From Candidatus Mediterraneibacter quadrami (lineage in GTDB: Bacteria; Bacillota; Clostridia; Lachnospirales; Lachnospiraceae), in assembly GCA_019120575.1 (NCBI GenBank), contig DWUU01000004.1, positions 1 to 47,482 of the forward strand: a DNA stretch of 47,482 nucleotides, given 5' to 3'. The notes beneath the pieces were generated by a model. That model made no database searches, was not told where the DNA came from, and worked only from the letters and a program-made list of their open reading frames with translations. Of this stretch, positions 24,095 to 26,950 are shown piece after piece; the stretch's first letter is position 1, and each line of letters starts with the position of its first letter. A program made the position numbers and the translations under genes.

Positions 24095-25318
24095 ATGAGC
24101 AGACACCCTGAACTGCTGGTTCCGGCCAGCAGCCTGGAAGTACTGAAGACAGCGGTTATCTTCGGAGCGGACGCCGTTTACATCGGCGGCGAGGCTTTCG
24201 GCCTGCGCGCCAAAGCGAAAAACTTCTCCATGGAGGAGATGAAAGAAGGGATCCGTTTCGCACATGAGCATGGGGTAAAGGTTTACGTGACGGCCAATAT
24301 CCTTGCGCACAATGAGGACCTGCCGGGCGTGCGGGAATATTTTGAAGAACTGAGAGAGATCCGGCCGGATGCACTGATCATCGCGGATCCGGGTGTGTTC
24401 GAGATCGCGAAAGAAGTGTGCCCGGAGATTGAGCGTCATATCAGCACCCAGGCCAACAATACCAATTACGGCACCTATAATTTCTGGTACCGCCAGGGCG
24501 CCAGCCGCGTGGTGTCGGCCCGGGAACTGTCCATGGAAGAAATAAAAGAACTCAGGGCCAATATTCCGGACGACCTGGAGATCGAGACCTTCATCCACGG
24601 GGCAATGTGCATTTCCTATTCCGGCCGTTGCCTGCTGAGCAATTATTTTACCGGCCGCGACGCCAACCGTGGCGCCTGCACGCATCCATGCCGCTGGAAA
24701 TACGCGGTGGTTGAGGAGACCCGGCCGGGCGAATACATGCCGGTCTATGAAAACGAGCGGGGAACTTATATCTTCAATTCCAAAGATCTGTGCATGATCG
24801 AGTACATCCCGGAACTGATCGACGCCGGCATTGACAGCTTCAAGATCGAGGGGCGGATGAAGACGGCCCTCTATGTGGCGACAGTGGCCCGCACATACAG
24901 GAAAGCCATTGATGATTATCAGAAAGACCCGGAGCTGTACCGGAAGAATATGCCCTGGTATCTGGACCAGATATCCAACTGTACTTACCGTCAGTTTACG
25001 ACCGGATTTTTCTTCGGGAAGCCGGACGAGAACACCCAGATCTATGACAGCAACACCTACAATAAAGAATACACCTATCTCGGGATCGTTCATGAAGTCA
25101 GGGGCGGTCTGTGCCGGATCGAGCAGAGAAATAAATTCTCTGTGGGAGAGATGATTGAGATCATGAAGCCGGACGGAAGAAATGTCGAGGTGCAGGTGAA
25201 GAGGATCCTGAATGAAGAGGGCGAAGAGCAGGAAAGCGCGCCCCACTCAAAACAGGTGCTGTGGGTGGAACTGTCGGAAGCGCCGGCGGAATACGATCTG
25301 CTGCGGCGGAAGGAGTGA
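24095..25318 (+). CDS. U32 family protein, tRNA uridine 5-hydroxylation (TrhP-type)
   Basis: The 407-residue protein carries the U32 signature ETFIHGAMCISYSGRCLLS (about 167-185) with its Cys residues, plus further Cys in the RGACTHPCRW segment that may hold an Fe-S cluster. HPELLVPASSLEVLKTAV at the start is typical. U32 proteins next to trmR install 5-hydroxyuridine at tRNA position 34 using prephenate (TrhP). Bacillus has two adjacent paralogues; here there is only one. Older annotations call it a collagenase-like peptidase. Confidence 0.88.
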   Translation: MSRHPELLVPASSLEVLKTAVIFGADAVYIGGEAFGLRAKAKNFSMEEMKEGIRFAHEHGVKVYVTANILAHNEDLPGVREYFEELREIRPDALIIADPGVFEIAKEVCPEIERHISTQANNTNYGTYNFWYRQGASRVVSARELSMEEIKELRANIPDDLEIETFIHGAMCISYSGRCLLSNYFTGRDANRGACTHPCRWKYAVVEETRPGEYMPVYENERGTYIFNSKDLCMIEYIPELIDAGIDSFKIEGRMKTALYVATVARTYRKAIDDYQKDPELYRKNMPWYLDQISNCTYRQFTTGFFFGKPDENTQIYDSNTYNKEYTYLGIVHEVRGGLCRIEQRNKFSVGEMIEIMKPDGRNVEVQVKRILNEEGEEQESAPHSKQVLWVELSEAPAEYDLLRRKE

Positions 25319-25430
25319 AATTCCTGTTTTCCGGACAGCCTGTTGTTTGCCGGATCTGTTCTACACCCTTGAAGCATAAATGAAAAACACTTAAAGGATT
25401 TACAGTTTAAAAATAGCATTTATATATTTA

Positions 25431-25667
25431 GTCCGTATTTTTAAATCTCTATACGGTTAATATAAAGAAATCAACTATTCCGTCGGTATGATTTAGCAAG
25501 TGAATACGGACGCATTTTATGATTCCTGTAATTCACCCGTATTTTGACGAGTTGAAATACGGTCTAAATATCCATTTTAGATGAATGAACCGTAAATAAT
25601 TGTCTGGCGTACGGATTAAATCCGTATTTTTCGAATCTGGTCCGTATTACTAGTATATTTCATACGG
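25431..25667. repeat. Phased array of CCGTA...TACGG inverted repeats
   Basis: Five TACGG half-sites start at 25452, 25505, 25558, 25610 and 25663 (steps of 53, 53, 52 and 53 bp). Inverted CCGTA partners start at 25433, 25537, 25590 and 25642, 19-21 bp before their mates; a degenerate CCGTC at 25480 fills the missing place, and an extra CCGTA is at 25622. The fuller half-site is ATACGG(A/T). The DNA between the half-sites does not repeat. The mean period, 52.75 bp, equals five helical turns. The array lies in a gene-free, AT-rich stretch between convergent genes. Confidence 0.8.
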
Positions 25668-25777
25668 ACAAGATTCAAGTTTATAGAAAATTGACGGTAT
25701 TTATACTTTAAGCGCTGACACAACCGTTGATAATAGGTGTACTTGTATAGCCGGTTACGGTCAGAATGAGACTTTGT

Positions 25778-25890
25778 CTTGCTTGGTTGATTATGATCTG
25801 CAGAGATCAGGGCGCGTCAAGGCCTTGCCCTTTGGGTGCTGCGCAGCCTTGACGCGCCCTGATCCTGCAGATATGATACAGACAAGCAAG
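25778..25890. repeat. Long palindrome (imperfect inverted repeat, about 113 nt)
   Basis: The inner arms at 25798-25823 and 25846-25870 pair over 25 bp with one bulged A; both have PstI-like CTGCAG ends and a 22-nt loop. An outer CTTGCTTG (25778-25785) pairs with CAAGCAAG (25883-25890) across unpaired stretches. It lies between convergent genes and could end transcription of the minus-strand gene. Its GC-rich arms differ sharply from the AT-rich surroundings, which suggests an inserted repeat element. Confidence 0.75.
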
Positions 25891-26006
25891 CAAAGCCTCT
25901 CTGTGGCCCAGATTCCGCCTTATTCCGTGAATCCGCATTCTAATAGAAATTTATTGTTGTATCCTATGCTGCAGGTTCCGCTCAGTTCGATAAACAGGAA
26001 GTTGTC

Positions 26007-26789
26007 TTACAGAAAGATCTCCGCTTCTTTGTTGCTTCTGCATGCTTTTTTCAGCTTGCCTTCTATGACTTTCATTTTCAGGGAATTGACGCTCCGGGCG
26101 TGCTGCCTGCAGATCTGTACGCATTTCATGCAGCCGATGCATTTTTTCGTGTCGGTCTTATTCGGTTCTTTAACCGGGATGGATCCGGTAGGACAGACTT
26201 TTGCACAGGATGCGCAGAGCGTGCACATGTTATTGTCAGCCTTCGGGAAGAGGGCGTTTTTCCCGTATTTTTTATAAGGCGTATTGCCGGGAACCTGGAT
26301 GCTGATACTGCTGAAATCCTCTTCTTTTCGGATGCGCCGGTTCAGCTCGATGCCGTATTCTGCGATGGCCTTCAGGTCGGTTTTGTTCGGTCTCCTGGCG
26401 CCGATGGACGGCACAATGGAGTGCTCCGCCGGGAATGCAGCCGCGCCGATCACTTTGAAGCCGCGGTTCTCTACTTCGGTTTTGAGTTCCAGGAGCGCAT
26501 CGTCATACTCACGGCAGCCGTAGGTCGCGATCAGGGCCGCGGGGGTGCCGTTCCCGGAAATGTTCTGCAGATAGTCCATGAAGAGGGCAGGCACGCGCCC
26601 GTAGTATACCGGGATGCCGAAGATGACAAAATCATTGGGGGCAAATTTTAATGACGGTCTCTTTTCTTTATAGACGGAAAAATCAAAAGATACGGATTTT
26701 AAGTCAATATTACGGGCGGTTTCCATGACCGCTTTTCTTGTTGCGCCGGTCGGGCTGAAATAGACAAGCTTCAGTTCGTTCAGTTTCAT
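26007..26789 (-). CDS. EFR1-type flavodoxin/ferredoxin fusion protein
   Basis: From ATG 26789 (AAAGGAG upstream; a longer start lacks one) the protein is 260 residues. The N-terminal half is flavodoxin-like with an FMN-phosphate loop SPTGATRK (about 13-20) and VIFGIPVYYGRVP. The C-terminal part has two 4Fe-4S ferredoxin motifs, CTLCASCAKVCP and CIGCMKCVQIC. It is an electron carrier or small reductase in the cytoplasm. No partner oxidoreductase is next to it. The assignment to the EFR1 group rests on the fusion order. Confidence 0.88.
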   Translation of the reverse strand: MKLNELKLVYFSPTGATRKAVMETARNIDLKSVSFDFSVYKEKRPSLKFAPNDFVIFGIPVYYGRVPALFMDYLQNISGNGTPAALIATYGCREYDDALLELKTEVENRGFKVIGAAAFPAEHSIVPSIGARRPNKTDLKAIAEYGIELNRRIRKEEDFSSISIQVPGNTPYKKYGKNALFPKADNNMCTLCASCAKVCPTGSIPVKEPNKTDTKKCIGCMKCVQICRQHARSVNSLKMKVIEGKLKKACRSNKEAEIFL

Positions 26790-26950
26790 AATCGTAAAAC
26801 TCCTTTGTATGTATTCTGACCTCCGGCGGGTTGCATTTTCGGCATGCCGGAAGTTATGATCCGATAACAACTATATTAGCATACTATGACAAAAATTGCA
26901 CGACAGTTGGAAAAGAAAGGCGGAGCAAAAGCTGCTGGAAAAATATACAG

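Follow-up and report, generated by a model that had tools for sequence, protein, structure and literature searches.

A one-faced array of inverted CCGTA/TACGG sites, a candidate protein-binding module of a stop-to-stop foldback repeat in Mediterraneibacter

The intergenic repeat and its phased sites

The window, that is, the whole stretch of 47,482 nucleotides that was analysed, comes from contig DWUU01000004.1 of Candidatus Mediterraneibacter quadrami. It contains a U32 peptidase gene and a gene encoding 4Fe-4S ferredoxin domains; since these two neighbours are convergent, the whole intergenic gap between them is taken up by a single element. An earlier note on this DNA had described an array of CCGTA/TACGG inverted repeats in the gap. 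The array is real, but it extends over a module of about 25375-25710 that lies within a larger repeat at 25318-26003. The TGA stop of the peptidase gene (25316-25318) overlaps the left end of this repeat, at an offset of -2. The features are as follows.

24095..25318, plus strand: left flanking gene, U32 peptidase (Pfam PF01136, E 2.7e-102, and PF16325)
25318..25336, plus strand: left terminal inverted repeat AAATTCCTGTTTTCCGGAC (end L), from the copy alignment and the end pattern
25375..25710, plus strand: array module A (336 bp) with phased CCGTA/TACGG sites, aligned in 17 copies
25433..25437, plus strand: site CCGTA, intact in 12 of 13 other copies
25452..25456, minus strand: site TACGG, intact in 15 of 15 other copies
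25484..25488, plus strand: degenerate in-register site CGGTA, TCGGTATG in 16 of 17 copies (the remaining copy, G006_C16, begins downstream)
25505..25509, minus strand: site TACGG, intact in 15 of 15 other copies
25537..25541, plus strand: site CCGTA, intact in 14 of 14 other copies
25558..25562, minus strand: site TACGG, intact in 14 of 14 other copies
25590..25594, plus strand: site CCGTA, intact in 12 of 14 other copies
25610..25614, minus strand: site TACGG, intact in 13 of 14 other copies
25622..25626, plus strand: CCGTA private to the window copy and outside the conserved array, intact in 0 of 14 others
25642..25646, plus strand: site CCGTA, intact in 12 of 15 other copies
25663..25667, minus strand: site TACGG, intact in 12 of 14 other copies
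25737..25919, no strand assigned: palindrome module P (183 bp) with perfect 19-bp arms at 25805-25823 and 25846-25864
25918..25985, plus strand: right-end module R, which recurs among copies
25985..26003, minus strand: right terminal inverted repeat, AACTTCCTGTTTATCGAAC on this strand, from the end pattern
26007..26870, minus strand: right flanking convergent gene, 4Fe-4S ferredoxin domains (Pfam PF00037), stop at an offset of -6

Ten exact pentamers lie between 25433 and 25667, as had been noted, where the window background is 0.47 per 240 bp and the maximum elsewhere in the window is 4. The reported TACGG steps of 53, 53, 52 and 53 bp are exact. The proposed inverted pairing applies to the in-phase sites, which step alternately by 32 and 20-21 bp, but the CCGTA at 25622 breaks this alternation. 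One place had been called degenerate; it exists, at 25484, but is kept in register in nearly all copies. The ten site centres of the earlier note give R=0.935 at 10.5 bp per turn, in agreement with the same-side phasing it had proposed. With 11 centres (the conserved sites plus degenerate TACAG 25401 and CGGTA 25484, without 25622), R is 0.949 at 10.5 bp per turn versus 0.29 at 10.0 and 0.10 at 11.0, values that are descriptive because a regular period of about 52.5 bp itself generates phase. The one-faced stretch covers about 260 bp of DNA, with half-sites alternately two and three turns apart. The spacers from unit to unit within the array are nearly unrelated: the consensus has 35% identity at a shift of 53, close to the all-shift mean of 30%, and simple tandem duplication was rejected as the origin of the array on this ground.

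Other copies of the repeat show a modular order, with fixed ends and variable inner modules as in elements of the BOX type. The ends form terminal inverted repeats of the AAATTCCTGTTT family in opposite orientation, a feature of MITEs (non-autonomous transposable elements). Module X, a foldback of about 310 bp, lies in several copies between two end sequences 326-328 bp apart, and module U, a foldback of about 270 bp, is absent from the window element. Full elements have the order X-P-U-R (e.g., G013:C30:36557-37500 and G013:C16). Those bearing the array are ordered A-U-R (C23), A-P-R (the window) or X-A-U-R (C25 and G013:C1), and in C58 and C30 module A is reversed and adjoins P. The copies are dispersed, each is shorter than 1 kb, and no gene was noticed inside them on reading; the repeat is apparently non-coding and self-folding. 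At one further locus (L169:161-280, G006:C52), inspection by eye shows a lone end after a stop codon, followed by a simple terminator-like hairpin, and this arrangement looks as though the remainder of the element had been deleted.

Copies of the array and conservation of its sites

A search of the own genome (G000) with 25321-25920 gave 19 matches at E<=0.001, the query itself included. The array part is matched at C23, C58, C25, C49 and C30 and partially at C41 and C21, and the five longest other matches have 85-90% identity, spacers included. Longer matches in relatives have 74-90% identity. Recurrence in the own genome and in relatives, which the earlier note had proposed to look for, was therefore found. 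Its expectation that the gaps would differ from array to array was not borne out: homology of the copies, which were not independently assembled, makes their spacers similar as well.

Among 58 genomes of the genus, with at most the nine best candidates scored per genome, a 690-bp query was matched in 7 and the array part in 4 (G000, G006, G013 and G034), leaving 54 with no array match. The other three (G025, G046 and G053) match only the inner part of palindrome P, at window positions 25791-25873, and weakly (73-76% over 65-86 bp). This inner part of P is thus more widely spread among the genus genomes than the array. In a family sample of 397 genomes, with the best two candidates scored per genome, two were matched: the own genome and G253, from another genus, the latter by a 35-bp chance match with no array around it. 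An exact 34-base array pattern occurs at four places in the genome_contigs collection of 84,980 species, in which records of the own genome are possibly not contained. All four are Mediterraneibacter MAG records (Candidatus Mediterraneibacter guildfordensis, Candidatus Mediterraneibacter excrementavium and two contigs of uncultured Mediterraneibacter sp.). The same pattern has 0 occurrences in viral contigs, and blastn matched nothing in the phages and plasmids collections. Outside the repeat, CCGTAT-N-ATACGG is matched in the own genome at C38 (two), C13, C18 and C47; the two in C38 both lie inside ORFs and were discarded as kin of the array.

Flank fragments of array-bearing loci have 8 matches, from about 0.42 to 2.0 Mb, in a single-contig congener of 2.7 Mb, from which we infer that the copies are dispersed around the chromosome. 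All of the evidence comes from draft contigs, MAG records among them, and many contigs end within these repeats; assembly errors at repeats in MAGs are the main caveat to reading the array as part of an element.

The alignment of 17 array copies omits the shorter ones at G000:C41, G000:C21, G006:C5, G006:C93 and G034:C21. Letters depart from the consensus in 2.0% of cases in site columns versus 8.8% in spacer columns, with the site differences of row G006_C6 inflated by non-array flank, and shifting the site mask circularly attains the conservation observed in 2 of 268 cases. Since a consensus mask favours intact sites, the count was repeated with the sites of the window copy. Summed over nine of these sites, 119 of 128 copy-site comparisons show the pentamer intact, while the 149 spacer pentamers average 50% and 21 of them attain 90%. 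The tenth site, at 25622, is the one intact in no other copy, and the loss elsewhere of this alternation-breaking site fits selection on in-phase sites only. Every one of the 17 copies has an R at 10.5 bp per turn between 0.86 and 0.99. Phase is retained even in G006:C17 and C19, which have lost internal units (one 53-bp unit in G006:C17). Such preferential conservation is as expected of protein-binding sites.

Shared and private variants are distributed differently. Shared variants occur in 1 of 50 site columns versus 60 of 218 spacer columns, and at columns with a G or C consensus in 0 of 30 versus 35 of 58. Private variants occur in 13 of 50 site and 93 of 218 spacer columns, which is not significant (p=0.17); when the two divergent copies are removed, the rates are nearly equal (14 of 50 and 70 of 218 columns, p=0.75). 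The copies in these counts are not independent, owing to orthologues and possible gene conversion, and power is low. The near-absence of shared variants at sites, together with private variants that are roughly even once the two old copies are left out, suggests that the sites are mainly needed in source copies. At this low power, we read the pattern as constraint on the lineages from which new copies arise and not on each resident copy as such. In the divergent old copies G006:C80 and C61, the sites differ at 0 and 1 positions and the spacers at 38 and 51, and this pattern could equally mean maintenance in place.

Stop-codon placement and exchange of modules

Ends of the element were located in the fetched loci of G000, G006, G013 and G034 with the pattern AAATTCCTGTTT[TA][CT]CG[GA]AC, allowing up to two mismatches, and were called flush when an ORF of 100 codons or more had its stop codon at an offset of -8 to 0. 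Of 64 ends in the four genomes, 52 are flush versus a chance level of 1.5% (1413 of 93364 window positions and strands), although these are not independent, as gene ends recur across genomes in 25 shared clusters. Of the twelve non-flush ends, six lie inside composite elements. One gene end, recurring in three genomes, accounts for three more, its ORF being shorter and its stop at -15; another, near a contig edge, has a stop at -1 of a cut ORF; and the remaining two are isolated look-alikes that adjoin no module. Among look-alike ends without modules (two at two mismatches, seven at three), 0 of 9 are flush and one has a stop at -15.

A looser end pattern, AAATTCNNNTTTNNCGGAC, was found in 14 of the 58 genus genomes. 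It has 28 matches outside the four genomes; 16 of the 22 examined have a stop within 8 bp (ORF of at least 80 codons), and the remaining 6 have none within 20 bp.

At orthologous slots, the content of the element varies. The slot seen in the window holds A-P-R in G000, X-P-U-R in G013, an inverted A in G006, and, in G034, what is left of A together with an inserted hairpin. Between gene ends g11 and g12, X-P-U-R runs from one gene in G000 and G034 and in reverse in G013, where the slot is represented by two contigs that both end within the element. Module content or orientation differs between genomes in 22 of the 25 shared clusters; the other three (g21, g23 and g24) show no difference beyond contig truncation. 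Even the gene ends joined across an element vary: g16 is paired with g17 in G034 and with g20 in G006, g19 with g20 in G013 and with g18 in G034, and g8 with g18 in G013. The partner changes at g8 and g16-g20 would be expected if chromosomes break and rejoin at the repeats; chimeric assembly is the alternative. Exchanges, flips and partner changes all rest on drafts, and short-read assembly errs at repeats of this length. No clean empty site or target-site duplication was found, the orthologous slots having held other modules or a related element.

In G053, a distant congener, the same slot between the same two genes (offsets -6 and -4) is occupied by an 870-bp element with ends AAATTCGTATTTGTCGG on both sides. 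This element (L157:1501-2370) has a different sequence with a like plan, including several large arms.

Interpretation and comparison with known repeats

We favour the view, to which we give a probability of roughly 0.6, that module A, the array, belongs to a non-autonomous inter-stop foldback repeat resembling BOX and SPRITE and provides sites for a trans-acting protein. The repeat would be an interspersed element that fills the entire gap between two convergent stop codons, its inverted ends flush with the stops. Its full form would be a chain of the long foldback modules X, P, U and R, for which module A would substitute, or which it would join, in one small clade. The putative trans protein would bind the in-phase inverted half-sites as dimers or as a cooperative filament along one face of the DNA, and through it copies of module A might be moved, paired or exchanged. 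The sites would then be needed mainly for a copy to seed new copies, as docking places for a transposase or recombinase. The array for a cooperative dimeric protein proposed by the earlier note is in keeping with the one-faced phasing, the recurrence and the conservation of sites; the modular foldback repeat to which it belongs had been missed. A protein responsible for spreading the element is a likelier binder than one of the nucleoid or centromere type, and a host nucleoid or architectural protein is our second choice. A genome-wide search for the Y1_Tnp family and a scan of one insertion revealed neither a binder nor a mobilising transposase, nor an autonomous copy.

If a host protein of the architectural or nucleoid type used the array in place, the repeat would be merely a carrier and host selection would keep each copy. 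The one-faced phasing in 17 of 17 copies, the few site changes in the two old copies and the dispersal of copies around the chromosome, as judged from the congener, would all be in keeping with this. Against it, the orthologous slot of the window has no array in G013, a remnant in G034 and an inverted array in G006. Moreover, private mutations hit sites and spacers at similar frequency once the two old copies are left out, and 54 of 58 genus genomes have no array match among the best nine or fewer candidates of each. We therefore regard in-place use by the host as unlikely.

The array might instead act through a fold of its RNA or single-stranded DNA, with successive hairpins at the 3' ends of two convergent mRNAs serving termination or mRNA stability. 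The other modules are indeed long foldbacks. The 944-nt full element G013:C30 folds at -408 kcal/mol versus -267 for 20 shuffles (z -19.7), the G053 element at -367 (z -17.0) and the window element at -226 (z -7.7). By itself, the array is likewise more stably folded than shuffled sequences (RNA z -3.4 and -4.5, DNA z -4.0). At one site-aligned centre, spacer complementarity reaches 49% in the window copy and in G006:C80, versus a background of 31-34%. By contrast, the consensus spacers at site-aligned centres have a complementarity of 0.31-0.41 versus a background of 0.30. For the consensus fold of the array, built from 15 copies, the covariation term is +0.4 and 3 of 44 pairs show two-sided change, which lends the fold no support as RNA. 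No terminator-like site was found in the window element (25250-26100), and full element L063 has one versus 0.8 in shuffles. A structural role of the array is quite improbable in our estimate. Searches of Rfam gave four matches for window positions 25200-26100 at up to E 5, all below the gathering scores, and 0 matches at the gathering score for six loci. Terminator-like hairpins were noticed by eye in modules X and U.

Pairing of the two ends with each other is predicted over 16 bases in the G053 element, at both stop codons, and over 14 pairs in the window element. In L063 only the outer 6 pair, the remainder of the left end pairing with the inner end of X, and in L064 the ends are unpaired with each other and the left end pairs internally. 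Because these predictions disagree, a closing stem was rejected as a general rule, and an end-to-end stem is possible in some elements only. The joint change of both ends between the G000 and G053 types fits a conserved stem; homogenisation of inverted repeats would give the same result.

The regular unit and gap sizes and the inversion of the units recall a CRISPR or a plasmid or chromosome centromere (parS/parC-like), and we consider a true array of either kind very improbable. As the earlier note had argued against a CRISPR, the units are not identical and no Cas protein is present among 10 Pfam-scanned neighbours; in addition, the spacers are alike between copies. A centromere-like or replication-related (ori/ter) site, which that note had entertained, is disfavoured by flanks that are dispersed in the congener and by a different module at the same slot in some species. 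Many dispersed copies, the lack of an array match in 54 of 58 congeners (best nine or fewer candidates each) and the lack of a match in the phages or plasmids collections also speak against both.

Returning to the mobile docking module, a bolder and doubtful extension is that the repeat represents a distinct class. Stop-to-stop foldback cassettes might colonise convergent junctions at the stop codons, with the slot kept over deep divergence in the genus. Their sequence, ends and arms together, might be replaced whole, and modules exchanged, flipped and recombined in place, module A being the docking filament of the protein that drives exchange. Among modular interspersed repeats, this one is unusual in lying flush between two stops and in carrying a phased array of sites. 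A search of the literature, judged by titles and the opening lines of abstracts, with PMC3049150, PMC3733652 and PMC10969869 consulted more closely, found no published description of such an element. If a protein binds one face of the array and the element occurs at stop-to-stop slots only, mobile DNA would have a targeting rule that spares genes, and rearrangements breaking there would in every case join one gene end to another. The G053 element, unlike in sequence and similarly folded, raises the question of what maintains the structure (termination, mRNA-end protection or parasitism), and an odd motif array becomes a testable system.

PMC3049150 describes the BOX element of Streptococcus pneumoniae as boxA-boxB(n)-boxC, with about half of the insertions common to all strains and enrichment between convergent genes. 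Like BOX as outlined there, the present element is a modular intergenic interspersed repeat with fixed ends, a varying inner module and foldback potential. However, boxB is a tandem repeat folding into an RNA-like structure, whereas module A consists of one-faced inverted pentamers with a 53-bp period; the ends are flush with stop codons and the host genus differs. The same source outlines SPRITE as a pneumococcal terminator-like repeat, a stem followed by a uridine-rich tail, found near gene 3' ends and strongly enriched between convergent genes (PMC3049150), a placement shared by the present element. The latter differs in its size of about 450-945 bp, its several modules and its contact with both stops, and no terminator was found in the window copy. 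REP/BIME sequences with their RAYT transposase, as described in PMC3733652, are likewise dispersed extragenic palindromes in inverted arrays. Their GTAG/CGTC tag pattern is missing from the units described here, CGTC being present only at the degenerate place.

One Y1_Tnp match each was found in G000, G006 and G013. The locus in G000 (L174) was examined throughout, and those in the other two (L175 and L176) by their CCGTA/TACGG count alone. The G000 gene (L174:1099-1917, G000:C47) encodes a 272-aa transposase and lies between palindromes GGGACGTAGTAAAATT... Since this sole Y1_Tnp gene of G000 is flanked by its own unrelated palindromes and its locus has no array, a REP/RAYT relationship was rejected.

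Multi-site transposon ends of the Tn7/Mu type are rows of transposase binding sites. In the present case, by contrast, the sites lie within the element and not solely at its ends, and no transposase was seen alongside. Neither the Y1 transposase gene nor the integrase-core transposase next described yielded a link to the array. The latter belongs to an insertion sequence, presumably of the IS3 type, which interrupts one array copy (L078:120-1012, G006:C93; Pfam rve and HTH_21). A short hairpin in the array remnant of G034 (L060:1018-1063, G034:C21) has AAAGTGCGCCCTTTGTC-like ends that, by eye, are similar to those of this insertion.
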